A stretch of DNA of 64,000 bases, from contig NC_088789.1 in the NCBI RefSeq assembly GCF_949628265.1, forward strand, positions 28,451,883-28,515,882. Direction: 5' to 3'. Shown here one piece after another: positions 14,386 to 52,209 of this stretch. How positions within the stretch are numbered: the first letter of the stretch is position 1; every line of letters begins with the position of its first letter. The stretch is from Cloeon dipterum. Taxonomy: Eukaryota > Arthropoda > Insecta > Ephemeroptera > Baetidae. Made by a program: the position numbers and the translations under genes. The notes beneath the pieces were generated by a model. That model was not told where the DNA came from, did no database searches, and saw nothing but the letters and a program-made list of their open reading frames with translations.

Positions 14386-15925
14386 ATGTCAGGTGATAAC
14401 GAAGTAGTCGACTGGCGCAGTAAAAAAACCTTCACCGAACAGCTTTGGGGCATGTACGAAGCTCAACACGGGACTGATCTCAACATTGTTATCTCGGGTG
14501 ACGGAGAAAAGGTTATTATTTAACTTATTTATTTTAATTTTGATTGATTTAAATGCATTCAACGTCTTTTTATTTTTAGTAGCTCGCGTGTATGTAATTC
14601 AACTCGGGTCTGGTATTTAATTAAATTTATCTGATTTCAGGTTTTTCGTTGCCACAGCTTGATTTATCAAAGGCTTGTAACCGAAGAAATTGACGTACAG
14701 CCTCAGCCAACTATTTTTGAGGATATCGGTGAAATTGATCCTGAAGTTTTCGAAGTCATTTTGAGGTGAGTCCTTTGTTTTAATCATATTCACATGGGCT
14801 CACGAAAGCTCATTGGGAGAAGCTTTTACCTCTAATTTCTTGCGCGGATTTTTTCCGTTTCCGTGAAAATCTAAAATTTCCTGCTGTGCAGATTTATTTC
14901 TTTAAAATTGCTTTTTTCTGCCTAATTTCCTCAAAAATGTCTCTATGAGAAATTTTCGAGTCGAGTTCATGAGCCATAATTAAAAAATTATTAAAAACCA
15001 AGGTCAGCAAGAAACTGGTAAAAATATTTTCTGAAATAAATGCGTGTTTGTTGCAATCCTGGGAGAAAAGGACCATCGCCGCATTGAGGGATTTTGATGA
15101 AATGCAAGGAATTATAAAATTCTGGATTCGAAATGCTCAGAATTGCTTCCGCAGAGCATTCCGAACATCGCTCGGATTTTGAAAATTGACAAATATGCGC
15201 TCAACAATTTCCCCTGTGAGTAACACATTTTTTGATGGCATTCAGGTTTGGATACACGGACGAACTTAAGGCTAAAGACCTGCAAGAGCTCATCGCAGTC
15301 AGCAGAGTGGCCAAGATATTCAACATGAACAGGGTCAGTAAGGAATGCGACTGGTTGATCGAATTGGAAGTTAGCGCAGACAACATTTGGTACCTCATTG
15401 ATTGCATGAACGACGACGAGCCAAAATTGCAGGATTTAGCAAGAAGAGTGAGCAAATCCGCATTTTCCTTTCTAAATTTGTATGCTGATATTTATTTGTT
15501 TTGTTCAGGTTTTAGCCGAAAACATTGACGTTTGTTTGAAGTCTCCAAAATTCAAGGACTGCAGCCTAAAAGCGCTCGAATTCGTTCTGGACCAAGAGGA
15601 GCTGTCTGTCCCCGAAATGACTTTGATCCAGTCTGTGGTCCTGTGGGCCAAAAACAGGGAGCCTAATCTGAATGCGGAAAAATCGAAACAACTTTTGGGC
15701 CCGTGCTTGGGAAAAATTCGCTTTTTGTCTTTGACATCGGGTCAGTTCAACGAAATAACCCAGAAGCACGAGTTGCTCCCGCCAGGAGATTGCCTTTCTA
15801 TTTTAGTTTCAATCATAACTAAACAAGTCTCGCATCTTCCCGATTACATTTGTAAACTGGACACTCCCAGGACAGTCGTGAATCGAGGACATAGACCGAA
15901 CTTCCGCTGGTGGCTCTTAAAATAG
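14386..15925 (+). CDS. BTB-BACK protein without PHR domain (array gene 1)
   Basis: Exons 14386-14511, 14641-14765, 15246-15447, 15509-15925; 289 residues. The BTB domain spans about residues 9-125 (DWRSKKTFTEQLWGMYEAQ, DLNIVISGDGEK, VFRCHSLIYQRL, FGYTDELKAKDLQELIA). BACK spans about 150-255 (LEFVLDQEELSVPEMTLIQS, VVLWAKNREPNLNAEKSKQL, LLGPCLGKIRFLSLTSGQF). The chain stops about 25 residues after BACK (LPDYICKLDTPR then WWLLK), where the five genes downstream go on into a linker and PHR-like domain. BTB proteins of this class dimerise and recruit Cullin-3; here the substrate-binding module would be missing. Exon boundaries are those of genes 2-6, so it is part of the same expansion but the most diverged member. 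It may be a natural short form or a truncated copy; no later PHR exon was seen downstream. Confidence 0.82.
14820..15062 (+). repeat. Dispersed repeat family B in BTB gene 1 intron
   Basis: Intron 14766-15245 contains the family B order: TTTCTTGCGCGGATTT, GTGAAAATCTAAAATTTCC, GCAGATTTATTTCTTTAAAA, AGCAAGAAACTGGTAAAAA, GTTTGTTGCAATCCTG. It is the same orientation as 2505-2795 and 61795-62115. Confidence 0.6.
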
Positions 15926-17150
15926 AATTAACTGCGATCGCGAATTCAATTTAAATATGTACTCCAGGAGAGATTTTGTGATGTTTAAATCGTAATTTAT
16001 ATATATAAAAAAACAGTATGAAAATCGTTTTGTATACAAAGAGTGAGACCAGGAAACATTAATGTGGGCATGATTGTTTATCTGCTGTAAGTTGACAGCA
16101 AGAAAATCCACTTTTCATGCTCTTCTGGAACTCCCTCAATGATCCAATTCGATTTAGCCTAATTTTTTTCGTTTTTTTTTTTACAAAACAGACGAAGCAC
16201 AAAACATATTTATTTAAATAGGATATATTAATTTAAATAAATTTTAAAATTATGGCTCTTTGATCATATTGTCAAAAAGCACTGCTATATATCAAATAAA
16301 ATTTCAAATCTTGCTTGAATTTCAGTCTATTATTTTTCCCCGCTATTATTGAAGCCGCCAACAGATGGCGCATCCAAAGACTTTCTTCAAAAATATTGTT
16401 TTAAGCAATTTTAAGGCATTACCGCTGCGATTTCAGATTCAATCTAGCTATTTTGCTTTTTTCAATTAATTTGCTTTTTTTGACGTGCTGAAAACCAAAA
16501 TCGGTTCTGCCATTCGCCGTAGAAACGTTGGAAAAGATTTTTTATTTCAAAAAATAGTTTTTCACGATTCTACGGCGATTGGCTGAACCGATTTTGGTTT
16601 TCAGCACGTCAAAAAATAGCAAATTAATTGAAGAATGCACAGTAGCTAGATTGAGTCTGAAATCGCAGCGGAAGTGCCTTAAAATCGAAAGTCTACGGTG
16701 GCGCCATCTGTTGGCGGCTTCGAACACTTAGGGTTTATGCAACTGGTGAATTAAGTAATATTAATTTAAATTTTATATCGAGGATTCATTAATGTTTAAA
16801 AAAGGCATTTAATGGCTCACTTTAAAACAATTTTAGCTACTTAAGTTGCAACAGGGGATTGAAAGGGGTGGAAAATATACACCCATAAACGTTGCAAAAA
16901 TTTGTGTACTGAGTGCAACTTCCAATAAACAAAAAAGAAAAACCACAAAAAATTTACACGTCATTCAACAGCTTTTAAGCACATTTTCTTAATTCCAAAA
17001 TCATTAGGAGCTAATTTTTCCCAAAATTGTAATTGAAAACAAAAATAGACACCATTGCCCTTTGACATATTTCAATGCCGAAAATATTTTGTAAATTTTG
17101 CTGAGTTTGCTTGAACCATGCCAATTTTCAGTCAGAATGGGAAGAATCAA
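15926..17150. other. Intergenic between BTB genes 1 and 2
   Basis: AT-rich. ATCAAATAAAATTTC near 16290 is a possible polyadenylation signal for gene 1. MITE copy 3 fills 16346-16748. From 16750 to 17150 I see only A/T-rich sequence; CAGAATGGGAAGAATCAATG near 17134 has a short match near 32178. Confidence 0.45.
16346..16748. mobile_element. Palindromic MITE, copy 3
   Basis: Nearly the reverse complement of copy 1. The left end is truncated (begins ATTATTGAAGCCGCC), while the right end is full (GGGTTTATGCAACTGGT). Motif blocks CCAACAGATGGCGC at 16358-16371 and GGCGCCATCTGTTGG at 16700-16714. It lies between BTB genes 1 and 2. Confidence 0.85.
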
Positions 17151-17578
17151 TGCTCTTATAATAAAATATATTAATTATCCCTTTTCTGATTGAGGAGTGC
17201 GAGACCTCCCCGCCAAGAGCGAGAGATCTGCACGCTACCCATTTCTCCACCATGCGTTTTTATTTTCCTACCCCGCCGCCCACGCACAGTCACAGTCGCT
17301 CATTGTCAGTCTCACACCGCGCACACTACTCACTGGCTGCATTTTGCGATTCTGGTGCTCAACCCATTGTTGCAGGAGAAGTTACCTTACTTAAATTCAG
17401 CTTCGTCAGCTTCAGACAGCAATGCGCGTATGATTGTTCACATTATCTCGCTTTTAAAACCCTCTAACCTTTTTGATTTGCATGTTGCAGAGTCGGATTA
17501 GTGCCCTGCATGTTATTCTCAGCTATTAGTATTGAGGCTCTACTTGACAAATTCCACAAATTCTTCACTGCCGGCAAG
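17150..17578 (+). promoter_or_regulatory. Leader of array gene 2 with 5' intron
   Basis: A leader exon similar to those of genes 3-6 (GAGAGATCTGCACGCTACC, then ATGCGTTTTTATTTTCC at 17252) ends AATGCGC|GTATGA. A 63-bp intron (17428-17490) follows, ending GTTGCAG. In this copy the frame opened by the ATG at 17252 stays open across the splice and joins the coding frame, so a form with about 108 extra N-terminal residues is possible. The leader region of genes 3-6 does not allow this. Confidence 0.5.
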
Positions 17579-19972
17579 ATGTCTAGCGAGGAGGAATTCG
17601 AAACCGTCGAACTATCCGACTGCGACTGGCGCAGCGGAAAGACTCTGACAGAACAGCTGTTGTTCATGTTCGAAAACAAGCTGGGGGTCGATTTCGGAAT
17701 CACTGTTGTCAGTGGCGACAAAAAGCATATTAAGGTATTATTTTTTTGGTGCAGATTTAGACGAAATTTGCTGAAAGGTTGCCGCATATTATTCCTGAAT
17801 TCCAAGAATTTTCTATTTTATAAAGAGCGGGCCTTTGATTTTTGGGATTTTTACAAAAATTAAATTTAACCTGGTCAACAATGCAACTTTTATTCTGATT
17901 GAGGCAAAATTAAATATTTTTGTTGTCTAAAATATTATTTTTCCCGTCAAACAATTGTAGGTCATAAAAGAGAGGTAAAAAAATGTAGCAAATCAATTTT
18001 GAGCATTTTAAATAGCCATAACGTTCCCCATTTAATTGGGAATGACATAAAAAATGTTTAAACCTCATTTTAAAATTAAATTGTGGTTTTTGCACCCTGA
18101 ATATCAAGATTTTTTTAATTGTGCGGATTTTATCATTGTTTATCGTTCAATTCACATAATCAAAAGGGGCTTTGACCCTATTTTGATTGAAAATAATTAT
18201 TTTCAATATTCAAGGCAGTGGTTGGAGCACTGTTAAATTAACTGAATGTTTTTGGTGTCGTTTCATGATTTTTTCAGTTCTGACTTGATCTTATATTTGT
18301 CTCACTTCCGTTAAGTAATAATTTTCTAAAAAATGGAATTTTAACAATAAAATACCTCTATATGTTGTGATTTACAGACGTTTCTATGCCACAAATTGAT
18401 CGTTCGGAGGCTCTCCCCAAATTTCGACGCGAATCTCGATGAACCTGACGGTGGTTCCCTTTCTTTGTCCATTGACAACCTGGATCCTGACATTTTCGCT
18501 GAAATTTTGAAGTATATATGACTCACTTTTCAATCAAAAAATGCTTTATTTTAATTTGATTGAAATTTTAAGGTTTGCATACACGGAAAAGCTAAATGTT
18601 GAGGAGCTACAGGACGTTTTTGCAGTCTACGAGTTTGCCAATTTGTACAACATGGACGTCGTCAAGAGGCAATGCAACAAGCTGTTTATGGTCAAGATGA
18701 ACAATGACAATGTTTGGGATTTGCTAACTTTCATGGAGAAGCAGCCGCCGGATGTGGATTTGGAGCGCTGTTTGAGCTTGGTGAGTGTCACGAATAAATT
18801 TTCACAGCAGGGGAAAAATGTAAAAAATTCATTTCTTGAATTTCTTGCGCAAGAAATTAGTAAAAATAAAGCAAATTTAATGCCACACTGCTCTTCATTG
18901 TCCTAATTTCTGTTTCCAGTGTCTTTCCACGAGCGACATTGGTTTTCTGAATACGCCCAAGTTCCTCGACTGCAGCCTCAAAGTGCTGGAATTCATCTTG
19001 GGCCAGGAGGAGCTGCCTGTCGCTGAAGTGCATTTGGCTGAATCCGTGATTCGTTGGGCCAAACACAAGGAGCCGGAACTGACTCCGGAAAAGTCGATAG
19101 AGCTTCTTGGCCCGTGCTTGGGGAAAATCCGCTTTTTGTGCCTGACTCCGGCCGAGTTCACCGAAGTCGTCGCCCTCAGCGGATTGCTGCTCCAAGAGGA
19201 CTGTTTCTCCATTCTGATCAACATCATTTCTTCTGGAAACAAAGCGATGCCTCTACCAGATTACATTTGCAAATTGGCCACTCCCAGGATGAGCCTGGAA
19301 TATATGGAACTTGAGACAGATTCGTCCACGCCTTCCTCGGAGGAACAGCGAGAAAGTTCAACGTCTCCTCCAAAAAAAGTGGAGCCCAGTGCAGCAGCTG
19401 CTGTGGAGACAAATCCAACAAAAACAAATGAGGTCGAGAATAAGAAGGCTCCTTCGACGTCTACGAAGCCTGATTTTTTGCTTGTTTGCCGTGATGCTGA
19501 TCCCAATCATGAACCCAAAATGTTATCAATTAGTAAAGATCCAGGAGAGATTAAAGTCAACATCGAAGTGTCAAAAGCAGTAGGTATCAAAGGAGTTAGG
19601 ATCACGTCCCAATCGACTCCAGATAAGTGCGAGCCTGGCAATTACCAGGAGGCCATGTTTGTCAGACTGCTGAAAGTCACCGACAAAAAGAAGTCGCAGT
19701 GTGCCTATATGGCCTACACTCAAAATGCTCCAAATGGACAAAACAAACATTTTGATGTGATGTTCAAGAAACCCTTTTGGTTGGAAGCAAGAAAGGTGTA
19801 CATATTGGAGGTGGTTTTGCGCAAGTCAGGAAATTACATGCTTTACACTCGACCGAGTTCGGTTTCTGTCGACGATTGCCACGTCAAGTTTAAGGTGAAT
19901 GAATCTAAAAAAAGCACACATGGCGCTGACCCAATTGAAGCCATATTTTTCAAAATCAAGGAGCGCACATAG
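17579..19972 (+). CDS. BTB-BACK-PHR-like protein (array gene 2)
   Basis: Exons 17579-17734, 18378-18511, 18573-18780, 18920-19972; 516 residues. BTB about 16-140 (DCDWRSGKTLTEQL, FLCHKLIVRRLSPNF, FAYTEKLNVEELQDVFA), BACK about 170-275 (VIRWAKHKEPELTPEKS, LLGPCLGKIRFLCLTPAEF), a charged linker about 285-345 rich in Ser, Pro, Thr and Glu, and a PHR-like beta domain about 350-512 (VGIKGVRITSQSTPDKC, NKHFDVMFKKPFW, GADPIEAIFFKI). BTB-BACK-PHR is the layout of BTBD1/2/3/6 and fly lute, which act as Cul3 adaptors; the same role is inferred here. The start chosen is the ATG common to the array; an in-frame ATG lies upstream at about 17510 (MLFSAISIEALLDKF). It is the most distinct of the five long copies. 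Confidence 0.87.
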
Positions 19973-20760
19973 ACTGAAAAAAAAACTAAAATTTCGTGTT
20001 TGTTTCTCATCGCTTTTGTTTAACAAAGCAATTATTTTTTTCCATCATGTCAAAGAGAGGATGTGATAAATTAAGAGGACCGTATTCTAAAATTAATAAT
20101 TAGATCACCCAACTAACTCTTGGCTCGTGTCATCTGATTTCAATGAAATTTGTTACTTGTGTTGCCCTATTAGTGATCCTTTGTTGAAACCTAAATTTAA
20201 GGGCAAAATCTCCGAAATCGCCTATTTTATAGGGGCTCAAAGTTTGAGTTTTTTTTTCGTGTGATTAATGACAGCTGTGAAACTTTTGGTACAAATTAAA
20301 ACTTGAAAGGTCTGGGTTTGGAACTCACCTCCAGCCTTCAGAAAGAGCTTTTGAGCCTAATTTAAACGCTCGCCTTCTGTAGTTCCACCAGAAACCCAAA
20401 TCTGAACTCGTTGCCGATGTATCTTTTGCGCCATTTGTTCGTTTTTCAAATATTTTACACTATTTCTGAAATTTCTGTGATCGCTGGAAACGTTCAATAT
20501 TAATGCTCAAAGAAATACATGTTTTTGATTTGTTGTATGGTAGCAAATTTGTAACATTCTTGTCATGAAGAAAATGCTGAATAAAATTAAATCGATTACT
20601 AAAAATATTTATTCTTCCTACAAGCCATATTCACTTTGAAATAAATTAAAATATTATTTTGTGTCTTTAAAACACGACTTCTGTTGCCATTTCTTGCATG
20701 ATTTGAATTTGAATTTTATGTATTTAAGAATAAACAAGTGGCAATAGCGCCGCTTGGCTC
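19973..20760. other. Intergenic downstream of array gene 2
   Basis: AT-rich, no open frame of note. AATAAAATTAAATCG near 20580 could serve as a polyadenylation site, which would make a long 3' UTR. At about 20735-20760 the sequence turns GC-rich into the upstream block of gene 3. Confidence 0.4.
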
Positions 20761-20838
20761 TCCGGGCGGCCGATGGGCGCTTCCTGCCTGCCCTTTGGGC
20801 ACTTCTGGTCCGTCGACCGGCAAAACCACAAAACGGAT

Positions 20839-20858
20839 CTCAGGTCACGTGACCTGAG
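20839..20858. promoter_or_regulatory. 20-bp perfect palindrome with CACGTG core
   Basis: CTCAGGTCACGTGACCTGAG reads the same on both strands. It contains GTCACGTGAC, the form of E-box favoured by Mitf/TFE-type bHLH-zipper factors. It also contains AGGTCA and TGACCT nuclear-receptor half sites as an inverted repeat with a 2-base spacer. It lies about 975 bp before the ATG of array gene 3. Which factor binds is unknown. Confidence 0.45.
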
Positions 20859-21129
20859 GAAGTTCGCAGAAGGGCAAGGATGAAAAGCCGCGGCCAATTA
20901 TCGACAACTTTGCTCGAAATTAATTAAAAAAAGCAATAAAAACCGCCCTCGGAACGGATCTCAGGTCGTGGAACCCTGAAAAAGGTCGTTTGGGCATATC
21001 AGGTAAGAGTCGGAAAAATTGCCAGCCAGATGAGGCGTCGTGGTCGACGATGCGATGAACGGTCGAATTTAAATAGAAAGAAAACCATTTTCGGGTGTGC
21101 ACTTCACGTGTGGCGAAGGCGAAAAAATC

Positions 21130-21420
21130 GTAAAAAATGAAATTTAATTTTTCTATGGGCGCGAAAAATCTGAAAATCGGTTTCCAGACCGGCGTTGGAC
21201 ATACACGTGCGATGGAACAGATTAAAACCTATAGTAAGTCCTCTTGCGTAAAAAATGGCGAATTTTGGGATTTCCCATGTTATTCTTATGGAGAAAGTGC
21301 AAAAATCACGTTTTTCAAAGTTAAAAAACATAATCCTCGTAGGATTTTGAACGGATCGTCTCGTATTTGGTTTCAAAATGTTCCCAGATAAATTTCGCGT
21401 TTTTTCCCCGATCACGATCA
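21130..21420 (+). repeat. Dispersed repeat family E, copy 1
   Basis: GGGCGCGAAAAATCTGAAAA, TCCAGACCGGCGTTGG, GGCGAATTTTGGGATTTCCC and AGGATTTTGAACGGATCG recur in inverted order at 42500-42760 (CCAACGCCGGTTTGGGAACC, GCGCCCATAAAA). Non-coding. Confidence 0.55.
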
Positions 21421-21815
21421 TGAGAAAAATTTATAATGCCTCTTCTCCCCGCATAATTAAACTTTGAAACTGTGCTCAGTGTTCAGTCTCGCGCCAACAG
21501 CGAATGTGTAGTGGAGCGAACGATCTGAAGAGGACGCACGCTACCAGCACCATGCGTGTTTATTGTCCAACTAACCGCACCCACTGCCACTGGTTGCTCC
21601 TTTAGATTCTGGTACTCAACCAAAGTTTCGAGTTGTTACCTTTAAAATTCGCAGCTTCAGATAACAATGCGCGTATGTATGATTCACATTATCACTTTTT
21701 TTACACGCCTTACCTTTTTGATTTGCATTGCAGTGTCAGACAAGGACCCTGCATGTTGTTGTTGTCAGCGATTAGGGAGGCTCTAGACAAATTCTCCACT
21801 GTCGGCATCGGCAAT

Positions 21816-24791
21816 ATGTCGAGCGCGGAGGAAATCGAAATCGCCGAAACAACGGACTGCAACTGGCGCAGCGGAAAGACTTTGATGGATCAGCTGTGGT
21901 TCATGTACGAAAAGCAGTTGGGCGTCGATCTCAAAATCGCTGTTGCCAGTGACGACAAGCGAATTAAGGTAAATTATTACATATTCTTTAGAATTTTTGT
22001 TTTGGTGCATGGGTCCTGGGTTTTAGACCAAAATTGCTGGAGGGGTTGCCACATTTAGTCCTGTGTCGCTCCTTAAAATGTCCGGCCAAAATTCCAAGAA
22101 TTGTCGTTTTTACAGGGGTTTAAAATTTGCCACTAACTAAAATAATTGTGTTTTTTAAGTTTTTTCTAGGCAAATGATGCAACTTTTGTTCTGATTAAAA
22201 AATGCAGTTTTAAATCTTCTTTATTTTAAGCCCAACATTATGGCCATTTTTGTAGGTCAAAGGTCATGGCCATAAAAAAGTGAGGTCAAACGTTTAAAAA
22301 AATTAGCATAATCCATTTTGAGCATTTGAAAGAGCTAAAATGTTCCTCATTCAATGAGGAATGATATATTAAAAAATTATGTTACGTTTTAACCCCATTT
22401 TTGAGCTAATAGCGTTAAAAAACGGGAAATTTTAACCGCCCTGACAATCAGGGTGCCTTGCAATGCGAGTAGTTTTGCCCCAATTTCGGTAAAATTCGAT
22501 CCAACCGTGGTCTATCATGGATATTTAATACTTCTGAGGTGTAAGAAACCCATTCCTTCCAGCTGGGTTCCGCAGGGGTGGTTTTTGGGGGTAAATTAAA
22601 CGAGATTGATGTTTTTATAATTATTATCAGAAACTCATATCTACCGTTGATGTTTGTGCAAATGGCTCCCTTCATTCTATGCATTAAAAATAAATTTTTG
22701 CACCCTGATTTTTTTTAATTATTCCATTTTTGTGTGTGGATTTCGTTGTTTGTTCATTTCCCGTAAATACAAGTTAATAAGCGGCTTTGACCCAAACTTG
22801 ATTGAAAATAATTTATATTGTCTTTTTTAAGGGTGTGTTTGGAATTTGGAAGGCTGTTAAATTACCTGAGTATTTTTGGCCTCGTTTCATATATTTTTTG
22901 CCACGAAAAATTCAATTCTGGACTGGATTTTATTGTAAATCACCTCCTCCCCCACTTCATCCTTAAGTCATTAATTGAGTTGTGGGTTAAATCGGAAGAT
23001 AAACAGTAAAATACCTCTTCCGTTGTGATTTACAGACGTATCAATGCCACAAAATGATTGTGCGGAGGCTCACCGCAGCGTTCGACCTGACTCTGAATGA
23101 ATCTGGCGATGGCTTCCTTTCTTTGGACATTGGCAACCTGGACCCGAACATTTTCGCTGTGATTTTGACGTATGGTTTTCTTTTCATTCCAACTAAATGG
23201 CATTTTATTTTATTCAACATTTTAGGTATGCATACACCGACAAGCTAGATTTTGAGAACATGGACATGAAGGACGTTATTGCAGTCCACAAGGTTGCAAG
23301 TTTGTACCAAATGGACGCCATCAGGCAGCAATGCAACAAGACGTTTTTGATCAAGATGAACAAAAACAATGTTTGGGATCTCTTAACTTTCTTGGAGGAG
23401 CAGTCAGACGTGGATTTGGAGCGCTGTTTGAGCTCGGTGAGTATCAGGATTACTAATAATGTACTTTTTTACCAAATGCAGGGCAGTTTTTTTCAATTTT
23501 TATCAGTTTCTTGCAGTCAATGTTTGAACCGTTGTATTCAATTACTTGCTCATGAACTCTGCTTGAAAATTTGAAGGAGAAAATAAGAATTTTCAAGACA
23601 AAATTTTGCATATTAGAGGAAATTTTGGCCAGTCTGACTCAAATTCTAGATTTGCACAAGGGAAAAATGGAAAAAAATTAATTCCTTGCGGAAGAAATAA
23701 AAATTGAGTGGTGAAAAAACGGGTGGTAAGCAAATGCAACCCTAATTATTGCTGTTTTATAGTTTCTTTCCATGAGCGTCACTGGTTGTCTGGATTCGCC
23801 CAATTTCCTCGACTGTGGCCTAAAAGTTCTGGAATTCATCGTGGGCCAGGAGGAGCTGCCTGTCGCTGAAGTGAATTTGATCGAATCCGTGATCCGTTGG
23901 GCCAAACACAAGGAGCCGGAACTGACTCCGGAAAAGTCAAAAGATCTTCTTGGCCCGTGCTTGGGGAAACTCCGCTTTTTGTGCCTGACTCCGGCCGAGT
24001 TTTCAGAGGTAGTCGCCCCGAGCGGATTGCTGCCACAAGACGACTGTCTCTCCATTTTGGTCAACATCATTTCTGGAAACAAAGCGATGCCTCTGCCTGA
24101 CCACATTTGCAAACTGGACACTCCCAGGATCAAACTGCAAGATGAGCCACTGGAGCCAAATTCGCCCACCCCTTCCTCGGAGGAGCAGCTAGAAAATCCG
24201 ACATTTCCTGCAAAAGTGGAGCCCAGTGCAGCTCCTGTGGAGACATACCCAACAAGTGAGGCTTCTTCGACGTCTGAGGAAATCGACTGTTTGCTGGTTC
24301 GCCGTCCTGCCGATCCCAAGTTCCAGCTGACAATGTTTTCGCTTGAAGCACCTGGAGAGATTGGTGTTAACATCGAAGTGTCGAAATCAGCAATTTTGAC
24401 CGGAGTTAGGATCACATCTCAAGTGACTCCAGTTGGGTGCGAGCCTGGCAATTACCAGGAGGACATGTACGTAAGTGTGATGGCAATCTCCAACGGAAAG
24501 CAGTCGCAGTGTGCCTTTCAGTCCTACGGTCTAAAAGCTCAGAATGGACAAAACAAGTATTTTGATGTGATGTTCAAACATCCATGTATGTTGCAAGAAA
24601 AAAAGGTGTACTTACTGAAAGTGGTTTTGCGCAAGCCAGGAATGTACATGTTTAACAAACGGCTAAAATCAGTTTCTGTTGATGGTTACCAGGTCAAGTT
24701 TAGTGTGGTTGGATGTAAAAAAGACACAAATGATGCTGACCCAATTCAAGCAATATTTTTAGTGGATTTTGATAAGGCATTGTGTGCTTAA
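21816..24791 (+). CDS. BTB-BACK-PHR-like protein (array gene 3)
   Basis: Exons 21816-21968, 23036-23169, 23226-23436, 23763-24791; 508 residues. BTB about 15-140 (DCNWRSGKTLMDQLWFMYEK, YQCHKMIVRRLTAAFDL, YAYTDKLDFENMDMKDVIA), BACK about 168-270 (VIRWAKHKEPELTPEKSKDL, LLGPCLGKLRFLCLTPAEF), acidic Pro/Ser/Thr-rich linker about 280-330 (EPNSPTPSSEEQLENP), PHR-like domain about 335-500 (AILTGVRITSQVTP, NKYFDVMFKHPCML, DADPIQAIFLVD). An alternative in-frame ATG lies upstream (MLLLSAIREALDKFSTVG). Exon 1 is nearly identical to that of gene 6, exon 2 to that of gene 5, and the PHR part to that of gene 4. Intron 3 holds an inverted family B repeat (about 23460-23750). The predicted role is a Cul3 adaptor choosing its target with the PHR domain; this is inferred from layout only. 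Confidence 0.87.
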
Positions 24792-25818
24792 GAACAATGG
24801 ATAATTAAAATTAAATATATACTTAGTGCACTTACACTAAAAAAATGCTCAAAAATCATTTATTTTTTATCTCATTTTTCCATCATGTCAAAGAGGTACA
24901 ATAATGGTAATGTGAGTGGCGAGGAGCCGTGCTTATTTGTTTCAGTTTTCGTCTGATTTACTACTTGTAGCATTTGAAGTATCAGTAAATTAAGATCAAT
25001 TTTAAGACCGAAATAACACTATAAAATTATTGCGGGGATGTCGTTCAGCGGAATCAAATAATGTGAATTCCTTTTGGTAGTTGGTTTATTGAACTTTATA
25101 ATTTAGACTTGGACTGAAATTTAATTTTACAGCAATTATAATTATGCAAACAGCTTTTCAATAATATAACAATAGGCGGCTCCTGGAATGTATGTAGATT
25201 TAAGAAAAAACCAGTGCGGGCGGCCGATGGGCTGTTCGCGCCTGCCCTTTGGCCACTGGTCCGTTGAGGCGGCGGAGGAATGGAGCAATAGACTTTATGA
25301 ACGACGGCGCCGGCAAAACCGCAAAGAAACAGAATCAATGCCCTAAATCCTTATGAGATTTTTTTCTCTCTGTATAATTCTCCTTTGAAATGTGCTCAGT
25401 GTTAGAATTGCGCCAAGAACAAATGTACGAATTACGAATGTAGTGGAGCGAGGCATCTGAAGAGGACGCACGCTACCATAAATGCATGTGCGTTTATTTT
25501 CCTACAGGAGAGTAGTTCGTTATTGTTAGTCCTACCCTACCGCACGCGCACAGGTCGGGTCGCACGGTCGCACGCACTACTCACTTCTTGCTTTTCAACC
25601 TCTACTTTCAAGGCACAAGTTACCTTACTGAAACTCATCTTCGTCAGCTTCAGACAGCAATGTGCGTATGATTGTTCACATTATCTATCTTTTAAAACCC
25701 TCTAACCTTTTTGATTTGCATTTTGCAGAGTCGGAATTGAGCCCTGCAGGTTTTAGTCAGCTATTTGCATTGAGGCACTCTACTCGAAAAATTCCACAAA
25801 TTGTTCGCTGCCGGCAAG
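24792..25818 (+). promoter_or_regulatory. Intergenic and leader region of array gene 4
   Basis: From about 24880 on (CATCATGTCAAAGAGG, then GGATGTCGTTCAGCGGAATC) this is nearly identical to 28360-29300 ahead of gene 5. It includes the GC-rich block GGGCGGCCGATGGGC...CCCTTTGGCCACTGGTCCGT (25217-25266), GACGGCGCCGGCAAAACCGC, the leader ACGCACGCTACCATAAATGC, a short upstream frame (25486-25515) and a 5' intron (25666-25728). An in-frame stop at 25771 rules out an N-terminal extension, so the ATG at 25819 is the start. Confidence 0.5.
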
Positions 25819-28255
25819 ATGTCTGTCGAGGAGGAATTCGAAACCGTCAAAATATCTGACTGCGACTGGCGCAGCGGAAAGACTTTGATGGATCAGTTGT
25901 GGTTCATGTACGAAAAGCAGCTAGGCGTCGATCTCAAAATCGCTGTTATTAGTGACGGCAATAAAAAGGTATTCTTTATTAAATTTTTGCAAAAAGATAT
26001 TAGGTGCATGGGTTTTTGGATTTAGATGAAATTTGCTGCAAGGTTGGCTTTTGTTGATATGAATTTGCGAATATTATTCCCTTCATTCATTACATTAAAA
26101 TTTTAATAAACTTAATATTGCGATTTTTCCACCCTGAACTTCGAGATTTTTTAAATTGCGCCATTTTGTGCAATATTCTTTCATCATTGTTTATCGTTCA
26201 TTTTACATACAAATTAAAAGCGGATTTACCCATTTTCGATTGAAAATAGTTAATTTAGACTTCTTTAAGCCCAGTGGTTGGAGGGCTGTTGAATTAACTT
26301 GGTTAGAACTGACAATGAGGTTTTTTTTTGGTGTCGTTTTTCATAAATTTTTCGCCACAAGAAATTCTATTCTGCTGGACTTTATTTTATCTCACTTCCT
26401 CATAAGTCATGATTTTCAAATTATTGTTGAAAAATTCAAACTTTCACGAAATAAAACACCTTTTTGTTGTGATTTACAGACGTTTCAATGCCACAAAATG
26501 ATCATTCGGAGGCTTACCCCAGTATTCGACAGGACTCTCAATGATCCTGGCGATGTTTTCCTTCCTTTGGACATTGGCAACCTAGACCCTGACATTTTCG
26601 CTGAGATTTTGAAGTATGATTCACTTTTTAGTCCAATACATGGCTATTTATTTTCATTTGATTCAATTTTTTAGGTATGCATACACCGACAAGCTAGATT
26701 TTAAGAACATGGACATGAAGGACGTTATTGCCGTCTACAAGGTGGCAAGTGCGTACCAAATGGACGCCATCAGGCAGCAATGCAACAAGGCGTTTTTGGT
26801 CAAGATGAACGAAAAAAATGTTTGGTATCTGCTATCTTTCATGGAGGAGCAGTCAGACGTGGATTTGGAGCGCTGTTTGAGCTTGGTGAGTATGAGGATC
26901 GCAAAAAATGCACTTTTATTACAAAATGCAGTGCAGTTCTTTTCAATTTTTATCAGTTTCTTACAGTCAATGTTTGAACCGTTATTTTCAATAACTTGCT
27001 CATGAACTCTGCTTGAAAAATTATTAGAGAAATTGAAGAAGAAAATGACAATTTTAAAGACAAATTTTTGCATATTAGAGGAAATTTTGGCCAGTCTGAC
27101 TCAAATTCTAGATTTGCACAAGGGAATAATGGAAAAAAAATTCATTTCTTGCGCAAGAAATTGGTAAAATTTTAGTGGTGGAAAAAAACGGGAGCTTATA
27201 AGCAACTGAACCCTAATTATTGCTGTTTATAGTTTCTTTCCGTGAGCTTCAATGATTGTCTGAAATCGCCCAAGTTCCGCAACTGCAGCCTCAAAGTTCT
27301 GGAATTCATCGTGGGCCAGGAGGAGCTGCCTGTCGCTGAAGTGAATTTGATCGAATCCGTGATCCGTTGGGCCAAACACAAGGATCCTGAACTGACTCCA
27401 GAAAAGTCGATAGAGCTTCTTGGCCTGTGCTTGGGGAAAATCCGCTTTTTGTGCTTGACTCCTGCCGAGTTTACCGAGGTCGTCGCCCTGAGCGGATTGC
27501 TGCTCCAAGAGGACTGTTTCTCCATTTTGGTCAACTTGGTTTCTGGAAACAAAGCGATGCCTCTGCCTGACCACATTTGCAAACTGGACACTCCCAGGAT
27601 CAAACTGCAAGATGAGCCACTAGAGCCAAATTCGCCCACCCCTTTCTCGGAGGAGCAGCTAGAAAATCCGACATTTCCTGCAAAAGTGGAGCCCAGTGCA
27701 GCTCTTGTGGAGACAAACCCAACAAGTGAGGATGAGAATAAGAAGGCTGCTTCGACGTCTGGGGAAATTGATTATTTGCTAGTTCACCGTCCTGCCGATC
27801 CCAAGTTTCACCTGACAATGTTCTCGCTTGAAGCACCGGGAGCGATTAATGTTAATATCGAAGTGTCAAAATCAGCAATTTTGACCGGTGTTAGGATCAC
27901 ATCTCAAGTGACTCCAGTTGGGTGCGAGCCAGGCAATTACCAGGAGGACATGTACATAAGTGTGATGGCAATCTCCAACGGATTGATGTCGCACTATGTC
28001 TATCAGAAGTACGCTCGAACCGCTCAGAATGGACAAAACAAGTATTTTGATGTGATGTTCAAACATCCATGTATGTTGCAAGAAAAAAAGGTGTACTTAC
28101 TGAAAGTGGTTTTGCGCAAGCCAGGAATGTACATGTTTAACAAACGGCTGAATTCGGTTTCTGTTGACGGTTACCTAGTCAAGTTTAATGTGGGGGGATC
28201 TAACAAAAGCACACATGGCGCTGACCCGATTCAAGCAATATTTTTTAGACGATAA
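25819..28255 (+). CDS. BTB-BACK-PHR-like protein (array gene 4)
   Basis: Exons 25819-25968, 26480-26613, 26675-26885, 27233-28255; 505 residues. BTB about 14-138 (DCDWRSGKTLMDQLWFMYEK, FQCHKMIIRRLTPVFDRTL, YAYTDKLDFKNMDMKDVIA), BACK about 168-270 (VIRWAKHKDPELTPEKS, LLGLCLGKIRFLCLTPAEF), linker with NPTSEDENKKAASTSGE, PHR-like domain about 335-502 (AILTGVRITSQVTPVGC, NKYFDVMFKHPCML, GADPIQAIFFRR). Exon 1 is almost the same as gene 5, exon 2 matches gene 6, and the PHR part matches gene 3. The BTB part differs from the closest copies mainly at surface positions such as SAYQ for SLYQ. The frame is intact throughout, so the gene is presumably functional. Confidence 0.87.
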
Positions 28256-29307
28256 TGATAAAAAGGAATTGTGTGCTTAAGATCAATTAATCATTAAAAT
28301 GAAATATACATTTAGTGCACGTACAATAAAAAATGCTCAAAAATCATTTATTTTTTATCTCATTTTTCCATCATGTCAAAGAGGTCCAATAATGGTGATG
28401 TGAGTGGCGAGGAGCCGTGCTTATTTGTTTCAGTTTTCGTCTAATTTACTACTTACTCGTGGCATTTGAAGAATCAGTAAATTAAGATCAATTTAAGACT
28501 CAAATAACACAATACAATTGTATTGCAGGGGTGTCGTTCAGCGGAATCAAATAATGTGAATTCCTTTTGGTGGTTGGTTTATTGAACTCCATAATTTTGA
28601 ATTGGACTGAAATTTAATTTAACAACAATTATAAATATGCAAACAGCTTCTCAATAATAGTATAACAATAGACGGCTACTGGAATTTATGTAGATTTAAG
28701 AATAAACAAGTACGGGCGGCCGATGTGCGGTTCGCGCCTGCCCTTTGGCCACTGGTCCGTTGAGGCGGCGGAGGAATGGACCAAAAGACTTAATGAACGA
28801 CGGCGCCGGCAAAACCGCAAAGAAACAGAATCAATGCCCTAAATCCTTATGAGATTGTTCTTTCTGTATAATTCTCTTTTGAAATGTGCTCAAGTGTCAG
28901 AATCGCGCCAAGAACGAATGTACGAATTACGAATGTAGTGGAGCGAGGGATCTCAAGAGGACGCACGCTACCATAAATGCATGCGCGTTTATTTTCCTAC
29001 AGGAGAGTAGTTCCTTATTGTTAGTCCTACCCTACCGCACGCGCACAGGTCGGGTCACTGGTTGCTTTTCTCGACTCAGGTGCTCAACCTCTAGTTTCAA
29101 GGCACAAGTTACCTTACTGAAACTCATCTTCGTCAGCTTCAGACAGCAATGTGCGTATGATTGTTCACATTATCTCTCTTTTAAAACCCTCTAACCTTTT
29201 TGATTTGCATTTTGCAGAGTCGGAATTGTGCCCTGCAGGTTTTTGTCAGCTATTTGCATTGAGGCACTCTACTCGAAAAATTCCACAAATTGTTCGCTGC
29301 CGGCGAG
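28256..29307 (+). promoter_or_regulatory. Intergenic and leader region of array gene 5
   Basis: A near copy of the region ahead of gene 4: same spacer, same GC-rich block (28714-28765), same leader (28940-29154), short upstream frame MRVYFPTGE (28981-29010) and 5' intron (29155-29217). This marks the gene 4 to gene 5 unit of about 3.5 kb as one of the youngest duplications in the array. Confidence 0.5.
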
Positions 29308-31776
29308 ATGTCTGTCGATGAGGAATTCGAAACCGTCAAAATATCTGACTGCGACTGGCGCTGCGGAAAGACTTTGATGGATCAGTTGTGGTTCATGTAC
29401 GAAAAGCAGCTAGGCGTCGATCTCAAAATCGCTGTTATTAGTGACGGCAATAAAAAGGTATTATTTATTGGATTTTTTAAAAAAAATATTTATGCGCATG
29501 GGTTTTTTGATTTAGATGAAATTTGCTGCAAGGTTTGCTTTTGTTGATATTTATTTGTGTATATTACCCCCTTCATTCATTACATTAAATTTACATTAAA
29601 CTTAATAATGCGATTTTCCACCCTGAACTTCGAGATTTTTTAAATTACGCCATTTTGTGCAATATTTCTTTCATCATTGTTTATCAGGTTTATCATTAAT
29701 TTTGCATATACAAAATAAAGAGCGGATTTGACCCAATTTTCATTGAAAAGTTAATTTAGACTTTTTTAAGCCCAGCGGTTGGAGGGCTGTTGAATTAACT
29801 TGGTTAGAACTGAGACAATGAGGGTTTTTTGGTGTCGTTTTCGCATATTTTTCACCACGAGTAATTCAATTCAGGACTTTATTTTATCTCACTTCCTCAA
29901 GTCATAATTTTCAGTTGAATTGTGGGTAAAATTGGAATTTTAACAATGAAATACCTCATCTTTGTTGTGATTTACAGACGTATCAATGCCACAAAATGAT
30001 CGTGCGGAGGCTCACCGCAGTGTTCGACCTGACTCTGAATGAATCTGGCGATGGCTTCCTTTCTTTGGACATTGGCAACCTGGACCCGAACATTTTCGCT
30101 GTGATTTTGACGTATGATTCACTTTTCAGTCCAATACATGGCATTTTATTTGATTCCATTTTTAGGTATGCATACACCGACAAGCTAGATTTTGAAAACA
30201 TGGACATGGAGGACGTTATTGCAGTCCACAAGGTGGCAAGTTTGTACCAAATGGACGCCATCAGGCAGCAATGCAACAAGATGTTTTTGGTCAAAATGAA
30301 CAAAAGCAATGTTTGGGATTTGCTCACTTTCATTGAGGAGCAGCCGAATGTGGATTTGGAGCGCTGTTTGAGCTCGGTGAGTACTTAATTTTCATCCTTT
30401 ATCAGTGCTGAAAAAAACCACATTAAAAAAATTCAATAATTTTCACCAGTTTCTTGCAGGCAAAATGTTTTGTTCTTTATTTAACAATAATTATTTCAAA
30501 ATTTGCTAATGGTCGCGAGTTGAAAAATTGTCGGAGATAAATTTTTGGAGAAATTGAGGCAGAAAATAGAAAAAAAATTGCACAGTAGATGAAATGAAAC
30601 TCAATCAGCAAATTTAGGTTTTTCACAGAGATAAAGTGAAAAAAATTCATTTCTTTGTCTTGCACAAGAAATTGGTAAAATCAGGTGGTAATCATATGCA
30701 AATCTGCTCTTCATTATCCTAATTGCTGTTAAAAGTTTCTTTCCATGAGCGTCACTGGTTGTCTGGATTCGCGCAACTTCCTCAACTGCAGCCTCAAAGT
30801 GCTGGAATTCGTCTTGGGCCAGGAGGAGCTGCCTGTCGCTGAAGTGAATTTGATCGAATCCGTGATTCGATGGGCCAAACACAAGGAGCCGGAACTGACT
30901 CCGGAAAAATCGAAAGAGCTTCTTGGCCCGTGCTTGGGGAAAATCCGCTTTTTGTGCCTGACTCCTGCCGAGTTTTCAGAGGTAGTCGCTCCGAGCGGAT
31001 TGCTGCCCCAAGACGACTGTCTCTCCATTTTGGTCAACTTGGTTTCTGGAAACCACCCGATGCCTCTGCCTGACCACATTTGCAAACTGGAAACTCCCAG
31101 GACCAAACTGCCAGATGAGCCACTTGAGCCAAATTCGCCCACCCCTTCCTCGGAGGAGCAGCTAGAAAATCCGACATTTCCTGCAAAAGTGGAGCCCAGT
31201 GCAGCTCCTGTGGTGACAAACCCAACAAGTGAGGATGAGAATAAGAATGCTGCTTCATCAACGTCTGGGGAAATTGATTATTTGCTAGTTCGCCGTCCTG
31301 CTGATCCCAAGTTCCAGCTGAAACTTTTTTCGCTGCAAGCCCCAGCAACGATTAGTGTTTACATCAAAGTGTCAAAATCAGCAAGATTCGGAGGTGTAAG
31401 GATTGCGTCTCAAGAGACCCCTGCTGGGTGCGAGCCTGGCACTTACAAGGAGGACATGTTTGTACATGCGTTCTCAATCGCCAGCAATGATGAAATCACG
31501 AATACCCCAATTAAATTACGAGCTGCGTTTATAACCTTTGCTCGAGAGGTAGAAAATGGACCAAATAAATATTTTGATGTGATGTTCAAGACACCATGTA
31601 TCTTGGAAGCAAACCAGGAGTACACTTTGCAGTTAACTTTCCGCAAACCAGGACAGTACCTGTTCAGTAAAAGGCTTGATGCTGTTACTATTAATGGCTA
31701 CACATTCAACTTTAGTCTGGTTAAACCCAGCGCACATGGTGCAGACCCAATTGAAGCTATTTTCCTTGCGGTTTGA
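29308..31776 (+). CDS. BTB-BACK-PHR-like protein (array gene 5)
   Basis: Exons 29308-29457, 29978-30111, 30166-30376, 30736-31776; 511 residues. BTB about 14-138 (DCDWRCGKTLMDQLWFMYEK, YQCHKMIVRRLTAVFDL), BACK about 168-270 (EFVLGQEELPVAEVNLIES, VIRWAKHKEPELTPEKS), linker NPTSEDENKNAASSTSGE, then a PHR-like domain about 340-510 clearly different from genes 3 and 4 (SARFGGVRIASQETPAGC, VENGPNKYFDVMFKTPCI, TFRKPGQYLFSKRLDAV, GADPIEAIFLAV). It has an extra loop of about 7 residues (SNDEITNTPIKLR) that the others lack. Exon 1 copies gene 4, exon 2 copies gene 3, and the PHR half pairs with gene 6. Confidence 0.87.
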
Positions 31777-32700
31777 TCACAAGAATACCTATGAGATGTA
31801 AGTTGAAAAACTTTCTTAATGACTGAATTTTGTTCAAATAATATACAGACTGAACAAATGAAAATATACAACAATTCTATATTTTATTAGAATTTTTTAA
31901 AGAATATTTTAAGTAAACTCAGTGAACCAATAAAAAATATTGCAGCTCAATCCTACAGTATTATTTATATCCGTTTTAATATAAAAATTGATAAAATTGA
32001 TTGCAACAATATGTTACTCCTGAGGGCAATCATAAAAAATGGAAGGAATGCTGGGCAAATAAGGAAAAATGAAAATTAATATAAATCACACAACACTCTA
32101 TACACATTTTATTTAATTTAAATTGCATGCGAAAGCTGTGTACTTATATCGAGGACTCACACTTCTCGCTCTCTGATGGGAAGAATCAATGTAATGACCT
32201 ATCCTAGCGAGAAGTGTGAGTCTGCCATAATATTATTTTTCTTTTTAAATTCATAATATAGGCCTTATATTCCTTGCAAATTTACTTTTAATAAGTTTCT
32301 TGAAAACATAAGTCCTAAATATTTCTTAAATATATTTTTCATAAGTTTATTGATTAGCCAAATATTTTCGATTGAAAAAAATGTAAGAACGGAGAAAAAG
32401 CATTTTTAGGTTTTGTGCAAAAAATGCTATCCAATTAAATTGATCAAAATTTGGACCGACGAGAATTCATCACTATCTTCCGAATGGGTGCATGGTTCGC
32501 GCCGCCTGCCTTTATTTAGGGCACTGGTCCGTCGAGGTGGCAGCGGCGGAACTGACCTAAAGGCTCTCGTTTTAAGTGACGGCGCCGGCATTCGGCAAAA
32601 CCACACAGAAACAGAATCAATAATGCCCCACATATTCTAAAAATACTGTTCTTCCTGCATAATTCCTAACTTTGATAATTATGTGCTCCGCGCCGTGTTG
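31777..32700. other. Intergenic between array genes 5 and 6
   Basis: AATAAAAAATATTG near 31928 is a likely polyadenylation site. A hairpin insertion lies at 32148-32230 (listed separately). The flanks AAATTGCATGCGAAAGC and GTGTACTTATA also occur downstream of gene 6 (35640-35668), so this intergenic DNA was duplicated with the gene. The upstream block GCCTGCCTTTATTTAGGGCA...CTGGTCCGTCGAGG and GACGGCGCCGGC at about 32500-32590 belongs to gene 6. Confidence 0.5.
32154..32222. repeat. Hairpin: 17-bp perfect inverted repeat, 35-base loop
   Basis: GACTCACACTTCTCGCT (32154-32170) and its exact inverse AGCGAGAAGTGTGAGTC (32206-32222). The segment of about 80 bp is missing from the duplicated region downstream of gene 6, where the flanks are joined directly (near 35668). 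It could be a tiny fold-back insertion or a structured RNA element. Confidence 0.7.
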
Positions 32701-33029
32701 TACTCGCGCCAAGAGCGAATAGCGAATGTTGGAATTTAGTGGAGCGAGTGATCTGAAGAGGACGCACGCTACCAGCTCCATGCGCGTTTATCGTCCACCG
32801 CACTCATTGGTTTCTTCTTTAGATTCTGGTACTCGACCAAAAAATCGAGTTACCTTACAACTCGCAGCTTCAGATAACAATGCGCGTATGATTATTCTCA
32901 TTTTATCACTCTTTTAAAACCTCTCACAGATTTGCTTTGCATTGCAGAGTCAGAAAAGGACCCTGCATGTTGTTGTTGTCAGCAATTAGGGAGGCTCTAG
33001 ACAAATTCTCCACTGTCGGCATCGGCAAT
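32700..33029 (+). promoter_or_regulatory. Leader of array gene 6 with 5' intron
   Basis: Leader ACGCACGCTACCAGCTCC with the conserved upstream ATG (32780; MRVYRPPHSL), donor AATGCGC|GTATGA, intron 32886-32947, acceptor CATTGCAG. The part after the intron, up to the ATG at 33030, is almost the same as in gene 3 and unlike genes 4 and 5. Confidence 0.5.
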
Positions 33030-35414
33030 ATGTCGAGCGCGGAGGAAATCGAAATCGCCGAAACAACGGACTGCAACTGGCGCAGCGGAAAGACTTTGAT
33101 GGATCAGCTGTGGTTCATGTACGAAAAGGAGCTGGGCGTCGATCTCAAAATCGCTGTTGTCAGTGACGACAAGCAAAAGGTATTATTTATTGAAGTTTTG
33201 CAAAAAAATATTTTTGCGCATGGGTTTTCGGATTTAGATGAAATTTGGGAAATTTGCTGCAAGGTTGGCTTTTGTTGATATGAATTTGCGTATATTATTC
33301 CCTTCATTCATTACATTAAAATTACAATAAACTTAATAATGCGATTTTTCCACCCTGAAATTCGAGATTTTTTAAATTGCGCCATTTTGTGCAATATTCT
33401 TTCATCATTGTTTAACGTTCATTTTACATACAAATTAAAGAGCGGATTTACCCAATTTCGATTGAAAATAGTTAATTTAGACTTTTTTAAGCCCAGCGGT
33501 TGGAGGACTGTTGAATTAACTTGGTTAGAACTGACAATAAGGGGTTTTTTGGTGTCGTTTTCATATATTTTTCGCCACGAGAAATTCAATCTGGACTTTA
33601 TTTTATCTCACTTCCTTAAGTCATAATTTTCAAATGATTGTGGGTAAAATTGGTAAAATTTGAATTTTAATAAAATAAAACTCCTCTTTGTTGTGATTTC
33701 AGACGTTTCAATGCCACAAAACGATCATTCGGAGGCTTACCCCAAAATTCGACGCGACTCTCAATGAATCTGGCGATGGCTTCCTTTCTTTGGACATTTG
33801 CAACCTGGACCCGGACATTTTTGCTATGATTTTGAAGTATGATTCACTTTCCAGTCCAATAAATAGCTTTATTTTAATTTGATTCAATTTTTAGGTATGC
33901 ATATACCGACAAGCTAGATTTTGAGTACATGGACATGAAGGACGTTATTGCAGTCCACAAGGTGGCAAGTTTGTACCAAATGGACGCCATCAGGCAGCAA
34001 TGCAACAAGACGTTTTTGGTCAAAATTAACAAAAACAATGTTTGGGATCTGCTAACTCTCTTGGAGGAGCAGCCGGATGTGGATTTGGAGCGCTGTTTGA
34101 ACTCTGTGAGTATTTTTGCTCTTCATCAGAGTTAAAAAAACACATTAAAAATAGTAATTTTTTAACATTTACCAGTTTCTTGCAGCAGGCAATATTTTGC
34201 ACTTTCAATTTTCTATCTGCTTGCTAATGACGGCGACTTAAAAAATTGTCACACAGAGAAATTGAGACAATAAAAATTAGCAATTTTAGAGGCCAAAATT
34301 TTAGGATTTTCGCGTGGAGGGAAAAATTAATTTCTTGCGCAAGAAATTGGTAAAATTTTAGTGGTGAAAAAAACGGGAGATTATAAGGGAACTGAACCCT
34401 AATTTTTGCTGTTTTTAGTTTATTTCCGTGAGCGTTAATGGTTTACTGAATTCGCCCAAGTTCCTCGACTGCAGCCTCAAAGTGCTGGAATTCATTTTGG
34501 GCCAGAAGGAGCTGCCTGTCGCTGAGGTAAAATTGGTCAAATCAGTGATTCGATGGGCCAAACACAAGGAGCCGGAACTAACTCCTGAAAAATCGAAAGA
34601 GCTTCTTGGCCCGTGCTTGGGGAAACTCCGCTTTTTGTGCCTGACTCCGGCCGAGTTTTCCGAGTTAGTCGCCTCGAGCGGATTGCTGCCCCAAGACGAC
34701 TGTCTCTCCATTTTGGTCAACATCATTTCTTCTGGAAACAAAGCGATGCCTCTGCCTGACCACATTTGCAAACTGGACACTCCCAGGATCAAACTTCCAG
34801 ATGAGCCACTTGAGCCAAATTCGCCCACCCCTTCCTCGGAGGAGCAGCTAGAAAATCCGACATTTCCTGCAAAAGTGGAGCCCAATGCAGCTCCTGTGGA
34901 CACAAACCCAACAAGTGAGGATGAGAATAAGAAGGCTGCATCGACGTCTGGGGAAATTGATTATTTGCTAGTTCGCCGTCCTGCTGATCCCAGGTTCCAG
35001 CTGACGATGTTTTTGCTGCAAGCGCCAGCAATGATTGGTGTTAACATCGAAGTGTCAAAAACGGCATTCATCAAAGGTGTTAGGATTGCGTCCCAAAACA
35101 CTGGCACTTACAAGGAGGAAATGTTCATTGAAATCAAGTGTGCCCCAAATGGAAAACGAGTTGTGTATCATTTCTTGTCTCATGAGGTAGGAAACGCATC
35201 AAATAACTATTTTGATGTGATGTTTAGGAAACCATGCATGTTGGAAGCAAACCAGAAGTACTTAATGACTGTTTGTTTCCGCAAATCTGGACAGTACCTG
35301 TTCAGTAAAAGGTTTGATTCTGTTATTATTAAGGGTTACACATTTAAGTTTAGCGTGGTTGACCCCAGCGCACATGGTGCAGACCCAATTCAAGCCATTT
35401 TCCTTGCCTTTTGA
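33030..35414 (+). CDS. BTB-BACK-PHR-like protein (array gene 6)
   Basis: Exons 33030-33179, 33703-33836, 33895-34105, 34419-35414; 496 residues, the shortest of the PHR-bearing copies. BTB about 14-138 (DCNWRSGKTLMDQLWFMYEK, DDKQKTFQCHKTIIRRLTP), BACK about 168-270 (GQKELPVAEVKLVKSVIRWA, LLGPCLGKLRFLCLTPAEF), linker NPTSEDENKKAASTSGE, PHR-like domain about 338-494 (AFIKGVRIASQNTGTYK, SNNYFDVMFRKPCM, FRKSGQYLFSKRFDSV, GADPIQAIFLAF). The loop that holds TPxGCEPG in genes 2-5 is shortened here. The gene mixes a gene-3-like exon 1, a gene-4-like intron 1 and exon 2, and a gene-5-like PHR half. AATAAAAATC near 35502 is a likely polyadenylation signal. Confidence 0.87.
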
Positions 35415-51469: not shown

Positions 51470-52209
51470 TGTATCGTCATCAGCGGCAAGAGAGTCGCGC
51501 GCTGCTCTGCTCTGTTCGCTTATCGTGTGTGTGTGCGAGCGAGTGAGTGTGTAATCAGCGGCCGCCTCGCCCTGAAAACGCACCAACTAACCGATAGCGC
51601 GAGAAGCAAAAGAGTGAACGAACAGACGGCCGGCCGTTCATCTAATGTAGATCTCCGTCAGTATTATTCGCAGTCGCGCAATATCTGCTGGAGCAACGAT
51701 AATAGCCGTACAACAGCTCATCACCCACCGCGGGCATACATTTATCTGTCATTGAGCGGCGCAGAAGAAGCACTTCATTTTCTTTTCAAGGTAACCTCGA
51801 ACAATGCACGCGGCAGGCACATATATATGTGTATGTATTTGTCGTTAAAAAATCTGAGGCTGCGACGACAACACCTCTCGCGCCGCTGCTGGTGCTAATT
51901 TTTGCAATACAGTTAATATGCACCTGGCATAAGAAAAAAAATAGAATTTAGCTCCCTATCCGTTCTATACACATAAATTGTCAGTTGTGCCTCAGTCAGT
52001 GATAAGGCGCGATAAGTAGAGGCTGACGCGGATATTCGTTTATTTTTTTTTATACAATACAGGGAGAGGTGCAATGAAAGGCGGTTGTTTATTAATCTTT
52101 ATCTGATAGTTGGAGCAAATATGCTCGAATGAAATAATGGTTGACTTCTCAAATGAAACGTGTGGTCATGTGTGTGGTCTGGTTTGTTTCAGCAATTAGA
52201 AAATTAGCG
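51470..52209 (+). promoter_or_regulatory. Probable leader of LRR gene C
   Basis: A non-coding exon ending CTTTTCAAG|GTAACC at 51790 and an acceptor GTTTGTTTCAG at 52181-52191 would give a roughly 400-bp leader intron, with 18 nt of leader left before the ATG at 52210. The start of transcription is not defined. Confidence 0.4.

Follow-up and report, generated by a model that had tools for sequence, protein, structure and literature searches.

Sequence evidence for mosaic copies in a tandem array of six BTB-BACK(-PHR) genes of Cloeon dipterum

Genes that combine BTB, BACK and PHR domains number four to seven in each metazoan genome covered by a survey that also proposes the PHR domain as the substrate module of their products (PMC1257465, as given in the passages concerned). 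An earlier note on this DNA had called such genes normally few, which agrees with the survey counts but not with the vent snails Chrysomallon squamiferum and Gigantopelta aegis, for which PMC7736800 gives 56 and 35 BTBD6 copies, in tandem clusters. What does a head-to-tail run of six genes of this kind in Cloeon dipterum represent, and does the variability of its PHR part mark a system of target selection? The window analysed here is the 64,000-nucleotide stretch at positions 28451883-28515882 of contig NC_088789.1 (C4), and the genome searched comprises 190 Mb in 10 contigs.

The array spans positions 14386-35414 of the window, with all six genes on the + strand. Gene models were built from sequence and between-copy homology at the coordinates that the earlier note had proposed. 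Every model has four coding exons, an open frame and an exon 4 that starts in phase 0, and all 18 introns are GT-AG, so that the six tandem, same-strand genes with intact frames described earlier are borne out. The common exon layout holds for exon number and for exon 3, which measures 202, 208, 211, 211, 211 and 211 bp from gene 1 to gene 6, but not for exon 2, where gene 1 has 125 bp and the other five have 134 bp. The models, with predicted protein lengths, are as follows.

14386..15925, + strand: gene 1, BTB-BACK without PHR, 289 aa; exons 14386-14511, 14641-14765, 15246-15447, 15509-15925; GT-AG model; Pfam BACK 21.3 bits
17579..19972, + strand: gene 2, BTB-BACK-PHR, 516 aa; exons 17579-17734, 18378-18511, 18573-18780, 18920-19972; Pfam BTB 23.5, BACK 20.2, PHR 21.9 bits
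21816..24791, + strand: gene 3, BTB-BACK-PHR, 508 aa; exons 21816-21968, 23036-23169, 23226-23436, 23763-24791; Pfam BACK 16.8, PHR 24.7 bits
25819..28255, + strand: gene 4, BTB-BACK-PHR, 505 aa; exons 25819-25968, 26480-26613, 26675-26885, 27233-28255; Pfam BACK 21.3, PHR 20.5 bits; exon 4 modelled with AlphaFold and compared by Foldseek
29308..31776, + strand: gene 5, BTB-BACK-PHR, 511 aa; exons 29308-29457, 29978-30111, 30166-30376, 30736-31776; Pfam BTB 28.4, BACK 23.0, PHR 24.3 bits
33030..35414, + strand: gene 6, BTB-BACK-PHR, 496 aa; exons 33030-33179, 33703-33836, 33895-34105, 34419-35414; Pfam BACK 21.3, PHR 25.3 bits

Judged by eye from their translations, P450-like exons lie upstream of the array (window 11684-13018) and a sodium-solute-symporter-like exon lies downstream (window 37746-38105). 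Two long frames farther along (window 44743-46596 and 52138-54297) appear by eye to encode leucine-rich-repeat membrane proteins.

The domain content by sequence is uneven. In exon-level frames, Pfam matches BACK in all six genes, over the cut-off in four (ten frames scanned), and PHR in five, over the cut-off in three of these, while BTB passes in two of the four BTB-exon fragments scanned (genes 2 and 5). The best relative of the spliced gene 4 product in the PDB is the BTB-BACK part of KBTBD2 (3.1e-10), and the BTB domain of BTBD6 is matched at 1.3e-4. A low-complexity linker joins BACK to PHR in the array proteins. Gene 1 ends at a stop at 15925, before any PHR, and has no Pfam PHR match; two genome searches with PHR proteins gave no PHR match at E<=1 in the interval between genes 1 and 2. 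The BTB-BACK-PHR architecture once ascribed to all six copies holds for five, gene 1 being BTB-BACK only. At the sequence level the link to PHR is weak and the scores are low; a PDB search with an exon-4 profile built from all six proteins turned up no PHR chain.

Predicted structures, made for one copy of each of two PHR types (genes 4 and 5), clearly point to a PHR fold of the C-terminal domain. The AlphaFold model of gene 4 exon 4 has a mean pLDDT of 54, with 11 of the 16 ten-residue blocks of its PHR part at 66-85 and the lowest at 41; its four Foldseek matches in the PDB at E<=0.001 are all PHR domains, of MYCBP2 and BTBD2 (best 8.9e-7). The model of the gene 5 PHR has a mean pLDDT of 74 and seven matches at the same threshold. 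The top four are PHR domains, led by the BTBD2 PHR 3no8 (E 5.6e-7, TM 0.63/0.66), and are followed by three phage-fibre and hydrolase chains. The comparison with the BTBD/PAM PHR fold that the earlier note had proposed thus placed PHR domains first for both models. This half, which it had described as strongly diverged, is only 11-16% identical in the two models to the solved PHR domains that they match. The PHR segments and the evidence for each are listed here.

19475..19969, + strand: PHR of gene 2, nearer to type A; every PHR tree within 4 log units of the best joins genes 5 and 6 to the exclusion of genes 2, 3 and 4
24288..24788, + strand: PHR of gene 3, type A; 90% identical to the PHR of gene 4 at the DNA level, rising to 92% in the 3' flank
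27773..28252, + strand: PHR of gene 4, type A; fold model and segment identity
31279..31773, + strand: PHR of gene 5, type B; Foldseek top match BTBD2 PHR 3no8
34962..35411, + strand: PHR of gene 6, type B; segment identity and PHR trees

The relatives of the array are dispersed through the genome. A protein search recovers all six array genes together with these relatives, and at E<=1e-5 a search with one family relative matches 20 loci elsewhere in the genome than in the window (the query itself included), several of them in clusters of two or three. The match contains no internal stop in 19 of these 20 wider BACK-family loci. A tree of BACK regions was built from 24 rows, 16 of them relatives, which sample part of the matched loci (L031 and L041 were left out, and L034 to L040 are represented by their longest frame only). 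In this tree the six array genes form one clade with support of 100/97, which argues that the array is not a chance assembly. The clade joins L025, L026, L027 and L028 (97/98), while the canonical BTBD6-like L017 and BTBD2-like L018 pair outside it (100/99), and the array genes do not group there with the BTBD6/lute- or BTBD1/2-type genes of the genome. On these alignments, the array is a divergent BTB-BACK-PHR clade distinct from the BTBD6- and BTBD2-like genes that the genome also has.

The PHR part was searched for separately. A PHR profile gives ten matches in the genome, four of them array copies. The remaining six are found beyond the window: C1 has one (1.1e-49), C2 two and C5 three. 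At E<=1, the gene 5 PHR finds the other four array PHRs and one C5 gene, whose domain, searched back, recovers the five array copies; L026, the neighbour of that gene, gives a weaker match to the array C-terminal part (2.7e-5, eleven loci searched). In eight further family members at seven loci, both C5 genes among them, the eight stretches scanned have no Pfam PHR. Among what was searched, the array appears to be the wider BTB-BACK family's largest local cluster; PHR-like ends of its type appear only there and in the C5 pair.

Smaller clusters of two or three wider-family BACK genes lie at C2:10.37, 12.15, 12.77, 22.15 and 34.01 Mb and at C5:12.22 Mb; Pfam PHR is absent from the C-terminal parts scanned at C2:12.15, C2:22.15 (one gene) and C5:12.22. 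In L027:4452-5519, a sister gene of the array, the linker is poly-glutamine and the C-terminal part matches no Pfam family. Big BTB clusters at C2:1.6-4.5 Mb, C2:35.1-35.4 Mb and C4:30.3-32.8 Mb were considered as members of the same family and rejected, as by eye they carry RCC1 repeats, a reading based on three stretches out of six fetched (loci L019-L024). Composed of short BTB exons, these large arrays seem to be RCC1-BTB expansions distinct from the six-gene array.

A comparison of the two halves of the array proteins shows how differently they have diverged. Among genes 2 to 6, identity is 70-88% in BTB-BACK and 44-82% in PHR, in keeping with the variable PHR half noted before. Gene 1 was left out of the segment identities, fourfold test, codon models and topology tests because it has no PHR and is far diverged. 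At fourfold sites, genes 3 and 4 differ from genes 5 and 6 by 9-14% in the BTB-BACK-linker part and by 36-38% in PHR, which agrees with a homogeneous BTB-BACK beside a more divergent PHR. This contrast is present in all four between-type pairs (permutation p 0.0001-0.0063), absent in the within-type pairs g3-g4 and g5-g6 (p 1.0 and 0.80), and mostly not significant in the four pairs with gene 2 (p 0.0048, 0.077, 0.082, 0.11). For the same four between-type pairs, dS is 0.62-0.83 in PHR and 0.13-0.21 in BACK, and BACK dS among genes 2 to 6 as a whole is 0.13-0.25. Since the PHR excess is also present at synonymous sites, it points to older ancestry of the PHR types together with exchange of the scaffold, and not by itself to diversifying selection. 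The variability of the PHR half, earlier read as a possible sign of a target-selection system, is matched by synonymous divergence.

The 5' part of the genes carries a different history. Exon dS falls to 0.00 between genes 4 and 5 in exon 1 and to 0.03 between genes 3 and 5 in exon 2 (other exon 1 pairs <=0.33). Genes 4 and 5 share 94% DNA identity in the 5' flank and 99% in exon 1, genes 3 and 6 share 97% in exon 1, and genes 3 and 5 share 99% in exon 2. Genes 3 and 4, in turn, are 90-92% identical across intron 3, PHR and 3' flank; genes 5 and 6 share merely 55% in the 3' flank. All 15 trees of the five sequences were compared for each segment. Within 4 log units of the best, the 5' flank with exon 1 admits a single tree, ((g3,g6),(g4,g5),g2), exon 2 admits three topologies, each with (g3,g5), and PHR admits three, each with (g5,g6). 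In AU tests the best trees of these segments are mutually rejected (p<0.005 each), although with five short sequences extreme topology p values are not to be read literally. Taken singly, exon 3, BACK and the linker resolve the topology poorly and are compatible with the (g5,g6) pairing. Judged from these segment comparisons, the array copies are mosaics, and the simplest reading is that conversion or unequal crossing-over occurred repeatedly in the 5' part of the genes.

These observations are best explained, with a probability of roughly 0.55, by a birth-and-death tandem cluster of divergent BTB-BACK-PHR scaffold or adaptor proteins in which BTB-BACK is homogenised and the PHR recognition part has diverged. 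Each protein except that of gene 1 would dimerise through a long-form BTB and carry a BACK arm of helices, the low-complexity linker and a target-binding PHR beta-sandwich. Conversion or unequal crossing-over would homogenise BTB, BACK and linker and exchange the 5' blocks of this part among copies, while two older PHR types (genes 2-4 and genes 5-6) would persist and drift apart; a homogenised scaffold with persisting PHR types would amount to a single scaffold with several recognition domains. The dimers would engage a ubiquitin ligase that is probably of the Cul3 kind, by a contact that has moved or changed. The product of the short gene 1 may pair with the others without binding a target, or the gene may be heading for loss, and the array as a whole may serve in defence.

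The same data may reflect neutral birth and death, with recent duplicates under relaxed constraint, ordinary conversion mosaics and no common special role, which we consider rather unlikely. Segment omega in pairs of genes 2 to 6 ranges from 0.17 to 1.33 and is mostly 0.4-1.0, and gene 1 is truncated, both as this explanation would have it. The averages from codon models are 0.72 for PHR, 0.80 for the BTB exons and 0.52 for BACK, and values below 1 in PHR and BACK speak for the adaptor cluster. Strong diversifying selection on PHR proved not robust, which favours neutrality: the M2a-M1a LR of 9.44 over all columns drops to 5.57 (p 0.06) away from gaps and to 3.06 (p 0.22) without gene 2. An omega>1 signal, moreover, is not confined to PHR. 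The BTB exons together give an LR of 11.13 and exon 2 alone 15.96 (p 0.0003), a signal that could arise from recombination; exons 1 and 3 alone give no sign of positive selection, and BACK gives an LR of 0.03 with no omega>1 class supported. However, frames are intact in all six genes, a constrained class with omega near 0.1 covers 37-42% of PHR sites (five sequences), and the near absence of internal stops from the matches at the wider BACK-family loci likewise argues against a drift without function. At the other extreme, the array may be a recognition library, in which a conversion-homogenised BTB-BACK has repeatedly been joined, at or upstream of the linker, to PHRs of different types, producing new target specificities of ubiquitin adaptors, possibly against proteins of parasites or selfish elements; this we hold to be very doubtful.

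The link to Cul3 calls for separate weighing. Binding of KLHL3 to Cul3 depends on a phi-x-E motif, and its E85A substitution leaves binding too weak to measure, in the account given in PMC3616122. The motif lies 20 residues past a conserved His-containing motif in KBTBD2 (LSE) and in the genome's BTBD6-like protein (LAE), yet alignment and a spacing check find it at standard spacing, in the alpha3/beta4 region, in none of the six array proteins. This, together with the missing PHR of gene 1, would suit BTB-BACK-PHR dimers acting as scaffolds or decoys, by which a target is clustered or sequestered with neither Cul3 recruitment nor ubiquitination. A look-alike triplet four residues earlier in four of the proteins (LDE in gene 2; LNE in genes 3, 5 and 6; gene 4 has LND) tells against such dimers, as does the genome's canonical BTBD2-like protein, in which phi-x-E is likewise missing at the standard place. 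The remaining Cul3 contact regions, furthermore, differ among adaptors, according to the same source. We regard scaffold or decoy dimers of this kind as unlikely and prefer the homogenised scaffold with diverged PHR types, in which any contact with Cul3 would be shifted or altered.

Known systems resemble the array in part. BTBD1, BTBD2, BTBD3 and BTBD6 (the BBP family) have the domain order and PHR fold in common with the array genes. The array differs in its BACK clade, separate from the genome's BTBD6- and BTBD2-like genes, in its six tandem copies, in its low-complexity BACK-PHR linker, in a phi-x-E off the usual spacing and in the low identity of its PHR models to solved domains. The vent-snail expansion is alike in its multiple copies and tandem clusters, but concerns snails and genes named BTBD6, as PMC7736800 describes them. 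The MATH-BTB proteins of C. elegans are likewise BTB scaffold adaptors with a variable substrate domain, but have MATH in place of PHR and BTB on the C-terminal side (in the description of PMC1257465). Strong positive selection is stated for their substrate-binding and not their cullin-binding domains (PMC4334554, attributing this to Thomas 2006), whereas the signal in the array PHR is not robust.

The array adds a further tandem BTB-BACK-PHR expansion to the reported snail case, and as a gene-family expansion it is interesting but not unprecedented. What is new here is the mosaic make-up of its copies; a limited search of the open-licence literature found no report of the array, nor one of mosaicism driven by conversion in BTB-BACK-PHR genes. 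Should the mosaic pattern have a functional meaning, the array would offer a compact example from an animal of an adaptor family whose scaffold half and recognition half have separate histories at the DNA level. Such separate histories make the PHR domain as an interchangeable target binder a testable idea.
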